NCBI GenBank assembly: GCA_900299205.1
Contig: OMIW01000093.1
Coordinates: forward strand, 1-7,249
Source: Pseudomonadota bacterium
GTDB taxonomy: Bacteria > Bdellovibrionota_C > UBA2361 > OMIW01
Length of the DNA: 7,249 nucleotides
Reading direction: 5' to 3'
A model generated the notes under the pieces. The model made no database searches. It saw only the letters and a list, made by a program, of their open reading frames with translations, and was not told the DNA's origin. Below, in pieces: positions 240 to 7,249 of this stretch (position 1 is the stretch's first letter; every line of letters begins with the position of its first letter). Position numbers and translations under genes: made by a program.

Positions 240-3200
240 ATGGCAGCTAAAAAGGAGAGAGAGACGACAAGAAGAGCATATACCCTCCGGTTAAGCGGAC
301 TATCGCCCACTGATACCGAGTGGCGCGATGCGCTCTGGCAGACCCATGAAGCGGTCAACAAAGGAGCAAAGGTCTTTGGGGATTGGCTCCTGACGTTGCG
401 GGGAGGTCTCGATCATAATCTCGTTAATTTCGCCGATAGCAAAGGAAAAGAGAGCTCCGAGCCAACCGAGGAGGAGCGCCGAAGCCGCCGCATATTGCTC
501 GCCCTTTCATGGCTTTCGGTTGAATCGGAACGGGGTGCACCTGAAGAGTTTAAGGTGGAACAACAGGAAGTGGTCGAGGTGTTCAAGAAGATCCTCGCGG
601 CGCGGGGGGTTGGGCCTGATGAGGTGGAGGTCTGGGTCAAGGATTGCAGCCCCTCGCTGAAGGCAGCAATTAGGGATGATGCGGTTTGGGTTAATCGGAG
701 TGGGGTGTTCGATTCAAAGGTTAAACTGTTGGGCGATGAACTGACGCGGGAAGATGGCTGGGACCTTCTTGAAGAAGTCTTTGGCGGCAAGGAGACCTAT
801 TTTTCTGATGTCGATTCTGAGGAGAGTAAAAATAACCGAACTCCTTCAGAAAAAGAGCAAAACATGGGGTCCACTTCACGGAGCAATGATTCAAAGGAGG
901 ACAAAGGTAAGGATTTCGCTATAAAAGCTCGAGGATGGCTCAGTAGACGATTTGGGACTGGCAAGGGTGCAGATTTTGAGCAGTTAGCGAAAACGTATCG
1001 TGAGATAAAAGCTTGGGCCGAAAATCAACCGACACCCCCTAGTGGTGGTCGCCAGCTTAGCAAAAGCGACCGAGATAACATAGAAAGGTTTAAGAAGCTT
1101 ACAAGTGCTCCAGGGCATAGGAGCAAAACCATATATTTACTCCAAAATATCACGGAAAAAAACGTTATCATGGAGGGTGATTTAATCGGGTTGAGACAAA
1201 AAGCAGAGGAGGATAGCCAAGAAACCTCAAAAAAAACGAATTCGAAGGGCCCTCGGAGGTACTCTAATCAAATCCGCGATGAGGTCCAGGCGGCGTGTCG
1301 AATACGCTATGTATCCGAGAACAAGGATCAGACTGGTGAATTTTCCGTCATGCTTGATCACGCTGCACGCCGGGTATCCCTTGCTCATACATGGATAAAA
1401 AAAGCGGAGGCGACGAGACGTAAATTCGAACGGGATTCAGAAAAGGGAGATGATGTACCTGTCCATGCTAAGGCCTGGCTGGAGTCCTATTGTCGGAATC
1501 GGTCTGATTCATCGAGAGCCCATGATTCGTATCGGATCCGTCGTCGAGCCATTGGGGGATGGAAGGAAGTGGTCGATGAGTGGAGTCGCGATGATTGTAC
1601 GTCAGTAAGGGACCGAATCGAAACGGCAAGACGGCTACAGCAGGATCGTTCTATTGATAAGTTTGGCGATATCCGATTATTTGAGGATCTCGCTCAAATG
1701 GATGCCATCTGTACTTGGTCTAAGCCTCCTATCGAAGACGGGAAAGCAAAACGAGCGAGCGACCCTCAGATCCTCAACAACTTCGTTGATGCAACAGAGG
1801 CTAAGTTCAATCGGGTTCGATTCAAGGTACCGGCTTATCGCCACCCAGATGTTTTTCTTCACCCAATTTTTTGCGATTTTGGTGATTCTCGTTGGTCGAT
1901 TACACCTGGAAAATCCTCAAAAGGTGGCCCTGTTGCATTTCCACGAACCATTGAGTTAAAGCTTCTGACCCCCGAAGGTGCCGTGAAGCCTTTCGAAATA
2001 ACTTGGCAATCAAAACGAGTGAGGCGAGATTTTGAATCAGCCAAAAATATCGAAGGTGGGGATGGTCGAGAGGTTGCTCGTGCAGATAGACACGGAAGAG
2101 CTACAGGTGAAGAAAAATGCGGAGGCACAACATCTATAATTGTACCCATCAGCAACAAACTCAATGGCCGATTACAGGTATCACGAGCACAGTTGGAGGA
2201 ATTATCGAAGTTTAAAAAAGATGAGTGGGATCATAAAACCCTGCGAATGAGGCGGTGTCTTAATTGGTTCATTACATACTCAGCAGATCTGACCCCGAAA
2301 GGACCGGGAATTGAATATGGCACGAAGAGGGGATTTGGAAAAAAATGGTGGAAAAAACCCCTCTCGCGCCGCCCCGGACTTCGCATCCTCTCCGTCGATC
2401 TCGGACACCGTCATGCGGCTGCCTGTGCGGTTTGGGAGGTGATGAACCGAGAGCAGATTGAAGAGGCTTGTCGTGATTGTGGTTGCGACGCTCCCACCGA
2501 GCAGCAGCTTTTTCTCCATCTTAAAGGAGAGTTGAAAAAAAAGAATAAGAAAGGAGAAGAGGTTGAAGTAGCAAAGACTACCATTTATCGTCGCATCGGA
2601 GCGGATACCATCGAGGATGGGCAACCCCATCCGGGGCCCTGGGCACGGCTTGATCGCCAATTCTTAATTAAGCTTCAGGGCGAGGAGCGGGGTGTACGAA
2701 AGGCCTCGAATGAGGAGGTTGAATGTATCGATGAAATCAAGAAAGAGCTAGGGCGTCAGCAGCAATCGAATGAGAAGAGCGCTGCTGTCGACGAGGTGAT
2801 GTTTTCGGCTGTCTCAACCCTTCGAAATGCGATGAAAAGGCATGGGGACCGAGCACGGATCGCATTCGCGATTAACAGTAACTACCAAGTAATGCCGGGC
2901 GGGCAGAAGTATTACTTCGACGAAAGTAAAGAGCTTTCAATCGATGATGATGCTGAGAAAAGAAGTGAACGTCACATCGCGTTCATCCAAGATATGCTCA
3001 TCTGTTGGCGTTCTCTCTTCTCAACAGAGGGGTGGCAAGATGACGAAGCTCGCGAAGCGTGGGACCGCTTTATCAAGCCCCTTCTTGGTGATGTTGAGAT
3101 TAAGGAGGGCTCCACCAATATTTCACGCGCCCAGCGGCGTAAGGAACAAGAGCAGGTGCGCGAAAAGCTGAAACCCGCGGCAACCGCTCTCATTGACGAT

Positions 3201-4490
3201 TTAGCTCTTCGTGATTGTATTTACAAGTCTTGGAGTGAGCAGTGGGAGGATAAAGATGTTCAGTTGAGGAGGCACATTAAGACCATTTCTCGAATGATTC
3301 TCCCTCGTTCAAAAAAAACGAAAGATCCGACGATTCGTAAGGTCGGCGGTCTTTCTCTTACCCGAATAGCGACTCTGACTGAATTTCGACGAAAGGTGCA
3401 GGTTGGATTTTTCACCAGATTAAGGCCAGACGGTACGCGCGAGGAGGCCAAAGAGGGCTTCGGACAGCGGACCCTTGATGCGCTTGAACGACTTCGAGAT
3501 CAGCGGGTGAAGCAGCTTGCGAGTCGTATCGTAGAGGCGGCGCTTGGTATTGGGAGGATGGCGCATACTTCGGGGACAAAAGATCAAAAACGTCCAGTCA
3601 GTCAAGTTGATAAGGTGTGTCACGCCGTCGTCGTAGAAAATCTTAAGAACTATCGTCCTAAGGAAACCCGAAGCCGACGTGAAAACAGGCAGCTGGCCGA
3701 GTGGTCTTCGTCGCGAATTGCGAAATATCTCGGGGAGGCCTGTGAGCTTCACGGATTGGGTTACAAAGAGGTGTCAGCCGCTTACACATCACAGCAAGAT
3801 TCGCGAACGGGAGCGCCCGGCATCCGCTGTCAGGATGTGCCTACCACCGAAAAAAATACCTTCTGGAAGAATCAGGTCACGGAGGCAGGGAAAAAGGATA
3901 CTTTTAGGAGTAGGTATATCGAGGATCTTCACCAAAAATTCAAAAAAATGAGCGATAAAGATCGCTCAAAACATCCATTTGTCAGAATTCCACAGAGGGG
4001 TGGGGATATATTTGTCTCCGCAGAGAGCACCTCTTCGGCGGCAAAGGGCATCCAAGCAGATCTGAACGCTGCGGCCAATATCGGGTTAAAAGCGCTGGTT
4101 GATCTTGAATTTGGGGGAGCGTGGTGGTTTGTGCCGTGTGATCAAAAGGGGTATCCGGTCAAAGATAAAGTCAAAGGCTATCAAATCATTAAGACGGACG
4201 AATCTCTTTTACCGGAAAAATCGGAGGACGGCCCCAGAGATTCATCAGTATCGAAGAAGCGGTCAAAGGGCTCTGCTGAAAAAGCAGAGAAACGGATTAT
4301 AAATCTGTGGTGCGATATCTCGGCCACGGATTGTCACAGCCGATCGAGAAGCTGGCTCCCTTATGAGGACTATTGGTCGAAAGGGGAAAAGAGCGTCGAG
4401 TCGAGAGTTGTTAAGATCCTCAGAGACCAGAGTAAGGTGTTAAAAAATGAATTAAATGGTCGCTCGGAGGATGAAGAAATGCCGTTCTGA
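240..4490 (+). CDS. cas12b: Type V-B CRISPR effector nuclease Cas12b (C2c1), unusually long
   Basis: RNA-guided DNA endonuclease of 1416 aa. In the family, one RuvC site cuts both strands of DNA next to a T-rich 5' PAM, guided by crRNA plus tracrRNA. Seen here: the N-terminal segment LWQTHEAVNKGAKVFGDWL resembles the Alicyclobacillus protein (LWKLHKEVNAGVRYYTEWL); a VPAYRHPDVFLHPIF segment precedes the nuclease half; RuvC-I has D720 (LSVDLGHR), RuvC-II E1133 (VVENLKNY) and RuvC-III D1274 (ADLNAAANIG). Other family blocks are LIKLQGE (809-815), GGLS (1036-1039) and TGAPGIRC after RuvC-II. All three acidic catalytic residues are present, so it should be active. It is 100-300 aa longer than most relatives. 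Charged Ser/Lys/Glu-rich stretches at about 189-225, 322-340 and 766-779 look like disordered inserts. The ATG at 240 has an upstream Shine-Dalgarno site. The stop lies 11 bases before the cas4-cas1 ATG, indicating an operon. Confidence 0.96.
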   Translation: MAAKKERETTRRAYTLRLSGLSPTDTEWRDALWQTHEAVNKGAKVFGDWLLTLRGGLDHNLVNFADSKGKESSEPTEEERRSRRILLALSWLSVESERGAPEEFKVEQQEVVEVFKKILAARGVGPDEVEVWVKDCSPSLKAAIRDDAVWVNRSGVFDSKVKLLGDELTREDGWDLLEEVFGGKETYFSDVDSEESKNNRTPSEKEQNMGSTSRSNDSKEDKGKDFAIKARGWLSRRFGTGKGADFEQLAKTYREIKAWAENQPTPPSGGRQLSKSDRDNIERFKKLTSAPGHRSKTIYLLQNITEKNVIMEGDLIGLRQKAEEDSQETSKKTNSKGPRRYSNQIRDEVQAACRIRYVSENKDQTGEFSVMLDHAARRVSLAHTWIKKAEATRRKFERDSEKGDDVPVHAKAWLESYCRNRSDSSRAHDSYRIRRRAIGGWKEVVDEWSRDDCTSVRDRIETARRLQQDRSIDKFGDIRLFEDLAQMDAICTWSKPPIEDGKAKRASDPQILNNFVDATEAKFNRVRFKVPAYRHPDVFLHPIFCDFGDSRWSITPGKSSKGGPVAFPRTIELKLLTPEGAVKPFEITWQSKRVRRDFESAKNIEGGDGREVARADRHGRATGEEKCGGTTSIIVPISNKLNGRLQVSRAQLEELSKFKKDEWDHKTLRMRRCLNWFITYSADLTPKGPGIEYGTKRGFGKKWWKKPLSRRPGLRILSVDLGHRHAAACAVWEVMNREQIEEACRDCGCDAPTEQQLFLHLKGELKKKNKKGEEVEVAKTTIYRRIGADTIEDGQPHPGPWARLDRQFLIKLQGEERGVRKASNEEVECIDEIKKELGRQQQSNEKSAAVDEVMFSAVSTLRNAMKRHGDRARIAFAINSNYQVMPGGQKYYFDESKELSIDDDAEKRSERHIAFIQDMLICWRSLFSTEGWQDDEAREAWDRFIKPLLGDVEIKEGSTNISRAQRRKEQEQVREKLKPAATALIDDLALRDCIYKSWSEQWEDKDVQLRRHIKTISRMILPRSKKTKDPTIRKVGGLSLTRIATLTEFRRKVQVGFFTRLRPDGTREEAKEGFGQRTLDALERLRDQRVKQLASRIVEAALGIGRMAHTSGTKDQKRPVSQVDKVCHAVVVENLKNYRPKETRSRRENRQLAEWSSSRIAKYLGEACELHGLGYKEVSAAYTSQQDSRTGAPGIRCQDVPTTEKNTFWKNQVTEAGKKDTFRSRYIEDLHQKFKKMSDKDRSKHPFVRIPQRGGDIFVSAESTSSAAKGIQADLNAAANIGLKALVDLEFGGAWWFVPCDQKGYPVKDKVKGYQIIKTDESLLPEKSEDGPRDSSVSKKRSKGSAEKAEKRIINLWCDISATDCHSRSRSWLPYEDYWSKGEKSVESRVVKILRDQSKVLKNELNGRSEDEEMPF

Positions 4491-4491
4491 C

Positions 4492-4496
4492 AGGAG
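4492..4496 (+). promoter_or_regulatory. Ribosome binding site deciding the cas4-cas1 start
   Basis: AGGAG lies just after the cas12b stop and five bases before the ATG at 4502. It overlaps the alternative in-frame GTG at 4496, so the ATG is the likelier start. Confidence 0.6.
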
Positions 4497-4501
4497 TGGA
4501 G

Positions 4502-6247
4502 ATGGATGAAAGCCTCTGGCCTGCCCGTAATATAGCGGAATATGCGTATTGCCCCCGTCTTTTTTACTTTATGCAGGTTGAGGGAGTATTTGTTCCGAGT
4601 AGTGATACGGAGAAAGGGGCAGCTGTTCATCGGAGAGTCGATAAGCCGAGCGCGCCGCCGCGAGGCCACCGTTTAGCTTCAGATGAGGTGAGTGACCATA
4701 CCCTCGAGCGGCCCGAGGTGGTTCGGAGTCTTGTTTTAACGAGTGAATCGCTCGGTCTGACCGCGACACTCGACCTGGCGGAGATCGTAGGGGAACGGGC
4801 CGTACCGGTCGAGTATCGAAAAGGGCATCCGAAGCGAACTTCTCGTGGGCGTCTCTTTGACGATTGGGGCGATGACGATGGTGGAGGGGATGTGCCGACG
4901 GCTCAAAATCGAGAGCCGTGGCCGTCCGATCGTATTCAGGTGGCGCTTCAGGGGATTTTGCTCCAAGAGGCAGGTTTCATGGTTGAAGAGGCGATAATTT
5001 ATTACGCCGAAGAAAAAATTCGGGTGAGGATTGCGCTGGATGATAAGGTGAGAGCGGATGCTTTGCAGACGCTAGAAGATGCCAAGCGGTGCGCCACGGG
5101 TTCGCGGCCTCCTCCTCTGATTAATGACCCTCGGTGTCCTCGTTGTTCTCTTCAGCCGATCTGTCTTCCTGATGAGGTTAATCATCAGCGAGTCGTTCAT
5201 CCATCAGAGGAGCTGACTCCCCGAAAAATATGGCCACCCCGAGACGATGGTATTCATGTCGTTGCCCAGCAGGAGGGAGTGAAGATCGGTGTGCGGGGAA
5301 TGGAGTTGAGGGTCACCGATAAAAACGGGGCTGTTGCGAAAACATTGCCACTTGCAAACCTTGAAAGCCTCTCCATTCTCGGTTCGGTTCAATTATCGAC
5401 ACAGGCCGTTCACACCCTCGCTGATATGCAGCTTCCGGTTGCGTTTCTCTCCTCAGCTGGTCGATTGGTAGCGATGATCGATCCTCTTGATTCTGTGAGC
5501 GCGGAGGTGCGGAGAGCACAGGTGAGAAAGTTCGATGTACCCGATTTCTGCCTTGAGCTTGTGCGGGCTCTCGTTTCGGCAAAAATTACTAATCAAAGAA
5601 CGCTTCTCCTTCGTAACCATACCTCGCTATCCGCGCAAGCCGCAGCGGATCTCGCAAAGGAGGCAAAAAGGGCGGCGCAGGCCGATTCGGTTGATGCAGC
5701 GCGTGGGCATGAAGGGCTGGCGGCAGCGATCTATTTTAGTAATTTCTCGGGGATGATAAGGGGAGCTCTAGGAGGCGAATTTGATCAGAATGGCCGTAAA
5801 AGACGCCCTCCCCCCGATCCGATCAACTCGTGCCTGTCCCTTGCTTATTCGATGCTTACCCATGAATGTGTCGCTGCGTTGCGTGTTGCGCGACTTGAGC
5901 CTTCAATTGGGGGTTTCCACGTCTCAAAACCGGGTCGACCTGCACTGGCTCTTGATCTCATGGAGCCGTTTCGACCGTTGATTGCTGATTCGGTGACTAT
6001 CACCTGTTTTAATAGGGGTGAATTGACAGAGGGGCATTTTCTGCGGATTGCGGCGGGCTGCGCGCTTACTGATGCGGGGCGACGTGCGTTCTTTAATGCG
6101 CTGGGCCGACGAATGGATGCCGAGGTTACCCATCCGGTCTTTGATTACCGGCTGAGTTATCGACGAATGATCGTTCTCCACGCTCGAATGATCGCTGCCT
6201 GGTTGATCGGCGATATTCCCTCCCTAGCATTTTTAACTACCCGCTGA
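4502..6247 (+). CDS. cas4-cas1: Cas4-Cas1 fusion protein, CRISPR spacer acquisition
   Basis: 581-aa fusion typical of type V-B and some type I loci. The Cas4 part (about 1-230) is a RecB-like nuclease that selects and trims prespacers by PAM. It shows the four iron-sulphur cysteines C17, C212, C215 and C221, H43, D91 (TATLDLAE), E104 in VPVEYRKG and Q146. The usual E-x-K lysine is Arg106 here, with Lys107 next to it. The Cas1 part (about 250-581) is the integrase. It shows E404 (HEGLAAAIYF), H473 (GGFHVSKPGRP) and D485 in ALDLMEPFRP, the conserved Glu/His/Asp metal site. I prefer the ATG at 4502 because AGGAG (4492-4496) sits five bases upstream; an in-frame GTG at 4496 would overlap that site. 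Cas1 should act with the Cas2 encoded 15 bases downstream. Confidence 0.96.
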   Translation: MDESLWPARNIAEYAYCPRLFYFMQVEGVFVPSSDTEKGAAVHRRVDKPSAPPRGHRLASDEVSDHTLERPEVVRSLVLTSESLGLTATLDLAEIVGERAVPVEYRKGHPKRTSRGRLFDDWGDDDGGGDVPTAQNREPWPSDRIQVALQGILLQEAGFMVEEAIIYYAEEKIRVRIALDDKVRADALQTLEDAKRCATGSRPPPLINDPRCPRCSLQPICLPDEVNHQRVVHPSEELTPRKIWPPRDDGIHVVAQQEGVKIGVRGMELRVTDKNGAVAKTLPLANLESLSILGSVQLSTQAVHTLADMQLPVAFLSSAGRLVAMIDPLDSVSAEVRRAQVRKFDVPDFCLELVRALVSAKITNQRTLLLRNHTSLSAQAAADLAKEAKRAAQADSVDAARGHEGLAAAIYFSNFSGMIRGALGGEFDQNGRKRRPPPDPINSCLSLAYSMLTHECVAALRVARLEPSIGGFHVSKPGRPALALDLMEPFRPLIADSVTITCFNRGELTEGHFLRIAAGCALTDAGRRAFFNALGRRMDAEVTHPVFDYRLSYRRMIVLHARMIAAWLIGDIPSLAFLTTR

Positions 6248-6262: not shown

Positions 6263-6553
6263 ATGCGACGATGCTATCTGGTTTTCTATGACATCCGAGA
6301 GCCAAAAAGATTACGCCGCGTGCATCGGGTGTTAAAGGGGTATGGCGAGGCGTGGCAGTACTCCGTTTTTTTTTGTGTTCTCAAAGATATCGACCGAGTC
6401 CGATTGCAAACGGATCTCGAGGGGGAGATGAACCAAAAGGAGGATCAAGTGATGATTCTTGATCTTGGTGCAAACGAAAAGCGTGCGCAGGAAGCGGTGA
6501 CGACCATCGGATTGTCGCTTCCTGAGCGACCGAGCGGCATTTTGGTGATTTGA
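6263..6553 (+). CDS. cas2: Cas2, structural partner of Cas1 in spacer integration
   Basis: 96 aa, normal Cas2 length, beginning MRRCYLVFYDI with the conserved Asp10 at the end of the first beta strand. The segment GEAWQYSVFFCVL matches the family's G-x-x-x-Q-x-S-V-F block in the second strand. A ferredoxin-like fold that dimerises between two Cas1 dimers is expected from the family; in most systems Cas2 acts as a scaffold rather than a needed nuclease. The gene is 15 bases after cas4-cas1 and last in the operon. Its stop codon TGA (6551-6553) overlaps the -35 box of the predicted tracrRNA promoter. Confidence 0.95.
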   Translation: MRRCYLVFYDIREPKRLRRVHRVLKGYGEAWQYSVFFCVLKDIDRVRLQTDLEGEMNQKEDQVMILDLGANEKRAQEAVTTIGLSLPERPSGILVI

Positions 6554-6577
6554 CGGGGACGATTGCTCCAGTATAAT
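6550..6577 (+). promoter_or_regulatory. Sigma70-like promoter of the tracrRNA
   Basis: TTGACG (6550-6555, five of six consensus bases) and a perfect TATAAT (6572-6577) are separated by 16 bp. The -35 overlaps the cas2 stop codon. Transcription should start at about 6584, exactly at the G that begins the 5' hairpin of the predicted tracrRNA. It is the strongest promoter I see in the window. Confidence 0.82.
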
Positions 6578-6583
6578 CAGACC

Positions 6584-6677
6584 GTCTCTACAGGAGACTC
6601 CATCGCCGCGGTACGTGTCGTCCTCTTCAATGAGCTTTAGCACCGCGGAGTCGATCAGTTTTATTCCGAATGGCGCC
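6584..6677 (+). ncRNA. tracrRNA: Predicted tracrRNA of the type V-B system
   Basis: Not a protein gene; recognised by complementarity and architecture. A 5' hairpin, GTCTC (6584-6588) / GAGAC (6594-6598), opens the RNA. CCGCGGT (6606-6612) then pairs with ACCGCGG (6642-6648) to close a large loop. That loop contains GTGTC (6615-6619), which can pair with the GACAC end of the repeat. After AG comes the anti-repeat: GTCGATCAG (6650-6658) pairs with CTGATCGAC of the repeat, ATTCC (6663-6667) with GGAAT, and GAATGGCGC (6668-6676) with GTGCCATTC (one G-U pair). TTTT against TGGC forms a small internal loop, and GTC of the repeat bulges out. The order hairpin, closed stem with a repeat-end complement, then AG plus anti-repeat follows the Alicyclobacillus Cas12b tracrRNA as I recall it. 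The true 3' end is uncertain and could extend to about 6720. Confidence 0.87.
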
Positions 6678-6690
6678 ATATTTCGTAGGC

Positions 6691-6720
6691 GGGATTTGAT
6701 ATTGAAAATTTCCCAGTTTT
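6691..6720 (+). terminator. Possible intrinsic terminator of the tracrRNA
   Basis: GGGATTT (6691-6697) can pair with AAA (6706-6708) and TCCC (6711-6714), leaving two T residues bulged and an 8-nt loop. TTTT follows at 6717-6720. The stem is imperfect and the T run short, so termination may be partial, allowing some read-through toward the array. Confidence 0.4.
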
Positions 6721-6900
6721 GCGAGAGCAAGGGTGGTAACAAGGGGGCTGGGGGATGCTCGCAGTGGCTGTTTTTCCCAAAAAAATAGGAAAAAAGCCTC
6801 GAGTTCGGCCTAGGCACCTAATGAGTTCGCCCCGACTTTCAATCACGCTCGCACGACAGTCGGAAAATGTGTGTGGGGTTAGGGGGTTGGAAGGGCGGCT
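6720..6900 (+). promoter_or_regulatory. CRISPR leader region
   Basis: Non-coding stretch between the tracrRNA and the first repeat. Leaders normally hold the array promoter and the sequence that directs Cas1-Cas2 to the first repeat. It contains several inverted repeats: TGCGAG (6720-6725) / CTCGCA (6758-6763), an 11-bp stem at 6766-6798, and CCGACT (6832-6837) / AGTCGG (6858-6863). A G-rich run (6875-6898) lies just before the first repeat. I find no convincing -35/-10 pair here, so the crRNA promoter is unidentified. The leader assignment follows from the tracrRNA-derived + orientation of the array. Confidence 0.65.
6766..6798. repeat. Inverted repeat, 11-bp stem in the leader
   Basis: GGCT-G-TTTTTCC (6766-6777) pairs with GGAAAAAAGCC (6788-6798), with a single bulged G (6770) and a 10-nt A-rich loop. 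Neither strand has a T tract after the stem, so it does not look like a standard terminator. It could form a hairpin in RNA or serve as a protein-binding site. Confidence 0.6.
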
Positions 6901-7249
6901 GTGCCATTCGTCGGAATTGGCCTGATCGACGGACACGTGGAGTGGGATGACGAAAAGCGCGAGGCTCGACTGTGCCATTCGTCGGAATTGGCCTGATCGA
7001 CGGACACGATAACATCGCCAGCGTAGTTTACCCCTTCTGGTCCCGTGCCATTCGTCGGAATTGGCCTGATCGACGGACACAAGAGGGCAGCACACTGAGT
7101 TTTGCGTAGGAGATAAGTGCCATTCGTCGGAATTGGCCTGATCGACGGACACTACGAGATTTCAATCACCCCACCACCTGAAACAAAGTGCCATTCGTCG
7201 GAATTGGCCTGATCGACGGACACTTGCCATGCAGTAGGCAAAAAAAACC
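6901..7249 (+). CRISPR. CRISPR array, five identical 36-bp repeats, truncated by the window end
   Basis: Repeats lie at 6901-6936, 6972-7007, 7045-7080, 7117-7152 and 7188-7223. They are identical, beginning GTGCCATTCG and ending ATCGACGGACAC. Complete spacers are 6937-6971 (35 bp), 7008-7044 (37), 7081-7116 (36) and 7153-7187 (35). The fifth (7224-7249) is cut at 26 bp, so more units probably follow. Orientation is taken as + because tracrRNA-like structure appears only when the upstream region is read in this direction. The 3' end of the repeat (CUGAUCGAC then GGACAC) then abuts the spacer, as in Cas12b crRNAs. The leader is at 6720-6900, so the spacer at 6937 should be the newest. The absence of any degenerate repeat fits an intact leader-proximal portion. 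Confidence 0.98.

Follow-up and report, generated by a model that had tools for sequence, protein, structure and literature searches.

A candidate tracrRNA with covarying stems in a type V-B CRISPR locus encoding a large Cas12b

The closest known counterparts of the RNA considered here are the guide RNAs of Cas12b enzymes, which form a pseudoknot with a short duplex of 5–7 bp (PMC11246509) and whose crRNA:tracrRNA duplexes are conserved in structure and even interchangeable between related enzymes (PMC6476878). A long bulged duplex together with a short pseudoknot duplex has also been described for the guide RNAs of Cas12f1, Cas12g, and Cas12l (PMC11246509). One RuvC-inactivated V-B variant, Cas12b3, has been proposed to serve in repression (PMC12669027). 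The window analyzed here is a whole contig, 7249 bases long, from a draft genome of 2.45 Mb. We are close to certain that the stretch from 6584 to about 6677 encodes, on the plus strand and behind its own promoter, a type V-B Cas12b tracrRNA that would guide DNA cutting.

Gene context and CRISPR array

The window carries a complete type V-B set on one strand, comprising Cas12b, a Cas4g/Cas1g fusion, Cas2, and an array (from cas12b to the array, the features described are on the plus strand). The effector gene at 240–4490 encodes a 1416-aa protein that matches the NCBIfam Cas12b family NF033949 with 907 bits (cut-off 150) and the PADLOC Cas12b model with 773 bits. Adjoining it are a cas4-cas1 fusion at 4496–6247 (NF049935 Cas4g/Cas1g, 624 bits, cut-off 560) and cas2 at 6263–6553 (TIGR01573 above its cut-off; PADLOC Cas2g, E 7e-27). 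The genome also encodes an RNase III and two HU/IHF-family proteins, and no second Cas12b was found among the genomes searched from the same phylum. At the contig end, 160 bp 5' of cas12b, lies a tRNA-Asn gene (5–80).

The array (6901–7223) consists of five identical 36-nt repeats and four complete spacers of 35–37 nt, with a partial fifth spacer continuing to the contig end; the repeat occurs nowhere else in the assembly. When the opening 20 nt of the four complete spacers were searched for in viral contigs, none had an exact match, so no PAM could be derived. With only five repeats visible and no spacer seed match in viral contigs, one might suppose that the tracrRNA is real but that the locus is inactive or serves only repression, as proposed for Cas12b3 (PMC12669027). 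The contig ends within the array, however, so that five repeats are only its visible part, and the adaptation genes are intact. The catalytic residues of the effector are also in place: RuvC D720, E1133, and D1274 line up with the conserved residues of other Cas12b proteins (alignment A1), whereas Cas12b3 carries substitutions at its RuvC residues. We consider an inactive or repression-only locus very unlikely.

A search with the window's effector as a single protein returned no relatives in genome contigs or viral contigs. When the query was instead an alignment of the window protein and the 9kln chain, genome contigs yielded 19 loci belonging to several phyla. Neither this two-sequence alignment nor a four-sequence alignment found relatives in viral contigs, a conserved tracrRNA pattern had no match there, and no relative was found in phage records.

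The leader upstream of the array also contains conserved elements. A CTCG box, within CGCTCGC, lies at 6848–6851, 53 bp before the first repeat, and 18/18 V-B loci, including the classical one of Alicyclobacillus dauci, have the same box at about -52 (range -49 to -53) (the window, L004, L005, L008–L013, L019–L021, and L049–L054). Further upstream is the element GCGAG-N32-CTCG at 6721–6761 (GCGAG at 6721–6725, CTCG at 6758–6761); across the loci the second CTCG lies at about -128 to -147, with GCGAG about 37 nt upstream of it in nearly all. Leader motifs of other CRISPR types have a known role in spacer integration. Because of its fixed distance from the first repeat, the CTCG box is a putative integration site, and our guess is that it is possibly read as DNA during spacer integration, anchoring the Cas4-Cas1/Cas2 integrase. 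A CAA-N4-TTR motif that looks like an IHF-site core is found at about -25 to -11 of the leader in L009, L013, L020, and L052 and is not clear in the window.

Promoter, anatomy, and strand of the tracrRNA

The candidate tracrRNA is situated between cas2 and the array, just 3' of a predicted sigma-70-type promoter, TTGACG-16-TATAAT (6550–6577, 11/12 matches), which overlaps the cas2 stop codon. This is the sole match in the region, where 0.4 would be expected by chance, and many relatives have similar hexamers at the same position. The sequence-only reading had placed the transcription start predicted from TATAAT at the first base of a 5' hairpin, 6584. The spacing fits this placement, with a gap of 7 nt in the window and 6–8 nt, judged by eye, in the five relatives with a clear -10 box. 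The start, like the end and the processing sites of the RNA, is a prediction from the DNA. A (C)TTGACA motif recurs 3' of the anti-repeat, about 183–213 bp before the array and with no clear -10 box behind it, in L005, L008, L012, L013, L019, L021, L049, L052, and L054, and in the window it is present only in a degraded form (6694–6701).

The 5' hairpin, P1 (GUCUC-UACAG-GAGAC, 6584–6598), and the closing stem of 7 bp, P2 (CCGCGGU at 6606–6612 with ACCGCGG at 6642–6648), were both recovered as originally described, appearing in the minimum free energy and centroid structures given by RNAfold for 6584–6649 (z -2.1). RNAfold also gives a small inner hairpin, P3 (CUC-UUCAAU-GAG, 6623–6634). Folded alone, 6584–6679 is not more stable than chance (z -0.5), as expected of a strand meant for pairing with another RNA. 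Rfam 15 gave no match to a tracrRNA or other family at the locus up to E 5.

The long anti-repeat at 6650–6676 pairs with the repeat GTGCCATTCGTCGGAATTGGCCTGATCGACGGACAC through 9 + 7 + 7 pairs, one of them G-U. The internal loop of 4 nt and the bulge of 3 nt proposed for this duplex are both readable in the sequence, as a 4x4 loop (TTTT/TGGC) and as TCG on the repeat side, and the duplex has an energy of -34.9 to -35.2 kcal/mol. An AG does follow the closing stem as had been stated, but its G is already the first paired base of the duplex. Leaving the array aside, the window contains 13,733 34-mers, and of these the anti-repeat is the repeat's most stable partner; a simple pairing score had put it third, and nearest-neighbor energies, the better measure, put it first. 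In shuffles of the intergenic region 1/300 was as good as the real anti-repeat. This single-sequence score is moderate; the strength of the case comes from the relatives. Across 14 loci, anti-repeats pair with their cognate repeats at a mean of -36.1 kcal/mol vs -22.7 kcal/mol with foreign ones, and the sum of the cognate energies was reached by 0/100,000 permutations.

Inverted repeats read nearly as well on either strand, and the array and anti-repeat could in principle be transcribed from the minus strand, making the functional RNA the reverse complement of the one described here; in 2/14 loci the minus version of the duplex is indeed the more stable. In the other 12/14, however, it is the plus-strand duplex that is more stable. 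The loci that were read have the promoter first, then the hairpin, and then the array on the plus strand, and where pairs in P1 and P2 vary, the plus reading gives six G-U cells vs one C-A, counts that would be swapped on the minus strand. Minus-strand transcription is thus, in our judgment, highly improbable.

Conservation, covariation, and the pseudoknot

The same RNA was found in 12/19 fetched loci, which come from several phyla, between cas2 and the array or the contig end. In an alignment of these 12 relatives with the window (A3, 13 loci), the proposed stems have 93.2% of their cells paired, vs 82.1% in shuffled alignments and 41–49% when the stems are slid. Both sides have changed at eight pairs, with compensatory changes in three helices. 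Such changes affect 4/5 pairs of P1 across the 13 loci, and P2 and P3 covary as well; P3 reads CCC...GGG in most relatives, whereas the window shows a double change at one of its pairs, U-A in place of C-G.

A covariance model built from the 12 relatives only, with the window left out (R1), recovered exactly 6584–6662 in the window, scoring 83.9 bits (E 2.9e-18), and its runner-up within the window's genome was 67 bits lower. In two fragmented genomes whose cas12b contig was without the RNA, R1 also located it on another contig, in each case adjoining an array with matching repeats. Together with the complete V-B locus and the covarying RNA in 12 relatives, the recovery of the window by a model that had not seen it bears out the sequence-only reading of 6584–6677 as a V-B-like tracrRNA. 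That the stretch between cas2 and the array is no RNA gene, but only a decayed copy of the repeat accompanied by inverted repeats that arose by chance, would suit the moderate single-sequence statistics (fold z -2.1; anti-repeat 1/300), but we give this almost no credence in view of the compensatory changes in three helices, the recovery by R1, and the cognate matching of anti-repeat and repeat in 14 loci.

We also identified a short anti-repeat, GUGUC (6615–6619), which is predicted to pair with the 3'-terminal GACAC of the repeat and so to form a pseudoknot. This pairing was absent from the earlier account of the sequence and is kept as our main model. An exact complement at the matching place was found in 18/18 loci, in three types: GUGUC/GACAC, GUGCC/GGCAC (L050 and A. 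dauci), and CCGCC/GGCGG (L051). The short duplex therefore covaries across the 18 loci, as the pseudoknot of a Cas12b tracrRNA should, with the covariation stemming from three outlying loci and the duplex invariant in the main clade. RNAalifold favors a different pairing, GUGUC with a GGCAC internal to the tracrRNA. As a main model this was rejected, because the window (C-A at one pair) and L013 have it only in weakened form and L052, judged by eye, lacks it. It is conceivable, though unlikely, that the free tracrRNA masks GUGUC with the nearby GGCAC (one G-U pair is in the way) until the perfect GACAC of the crRNA displaces it, so that binding of a crRNA would switch the P2 loop open.

Some relatives depart from the common form of the RNA. 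By eye, L051 is without the CTACAGG hairpin, and L052 keeps GUGUC within a much longer inner domain. Judged from these sequences, the stem and the short and long anti-repeats look like a fixed core, with the remainder variable. The planctomycete loci L013 and L052 (G442) share an identical 36-nt repeat, and the L052 Cas12b scores only 497 bits and has a tracrRNA with a much larger inner domain, a pattern that suggests exchange or divergence of modules.

Proposed mechanism and comparison with known systems

Our observations concern anatomy, conservation, covariation, and gene context; it is from characterized Cas12b systems that we infer how the RNA would be transcribed, trimmed, bound, and used for DNA cutting. 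The tracrRNA would be transcribed on the plus strand from the promoter at the end of cas2, and its long anti-repeat would pair with the repeat of the pre-crRNA while GUGUC pairs with the spacer-adjacent GACAC to form the pseudoknot. The P1 hairpin and the P2/P3 stem would dock on Cas12b, the genome-encoded RNase III would probably trim the long duplex, and the dual RNA would then direct the 1416-aa Cas12b, with its intact RuvC residues, to cut matching DNA.

The window effector belongs, by sequence, to a well-populated clade of Cas12b proteins of about 1400–1500 aa. The same clade contains its closest solved relative, the 1496-aa Cas12b of 9kln, 9klo, 9klp, and 9klq, with which it shares 50% identity over the aligned length. 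This likeness is one of the effector proteins, and our literature search found no paper on the 9kln–9klq guide RNA. Both RNA and effector had been called divergent, which holds against the Alicyclobacillus and Bacillus enzymes, whose Cas12b is about 300 aa shorter, but not within this clade.

For the Alicyclobacillus and Bacillus tracrRNAs, we examined the A. dauci locus and relied on BthCas12b and BhCas12b as described in PMC11246509. The order of parts is shared, as had been stated for the hairpin, closing stem, and long anti-repeat of the Alicyclobacillus RNA. In full it comprises a 5' hairpin, a closing stem, and a short anti-repeat in an internal loop, followed by an inner hairpin, the other strand of the closing stem, and a long bulged anti-repeat. 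The location is shared too, with the RNA encoded on the same strand as cas2 and the array and lying between them. The primary sequence is different, as also anticipated, with GUGUC/GACAC in the window vs GUGCCA/UGGCAC, and the window's inner hairpin is much shorter. The covariance-model comparison suggested earlier gives a weak but positive answer. In the search that recovered the window, the second-best match of R1 was a full-length one in the V-B locus on the A. dauci plasmid, where the tracrRNA is expected (17.9 bits, E 0.03). Since this match is weak, the case for homology across the whole V-B family leans less on the score than on the layout and context in common. Annotation of the A. dauci plasmid splits the Cas12b gene (L004, 3680–7044) into two overlapping reading frames, and the gene may be frameshifted.

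The resemblance to the guide RNAs of Cas12f1, Cas12g, and Cas12l is one of layout only, because the window effector is Cas12b by a wide margin. As Cas12b duplexes are already described as conserved in structure and, between related enzymes, even interchangeable (PMC6476878), the conservation described here will not surprise a specialist. Its value lies in the guide-RNA layout, with both anti-repeats, stem boundaries, and predicted start, that it provides for the large Cas12b enzymes of a clade spanning several phyla, and in a covariance model that detects such RNAs even where the contig is broken. In addition, the covariation of the pseudoknot's short duplex across V-B lends evolutionary support to what structures had reported. 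With its long bulged repeat:anti-repeat stem and its short pseudoknot duplex, the RNA at 6584–6677 is a clean addition to the known class of Cas12b tracrRNAs rather than a new class of RNA.
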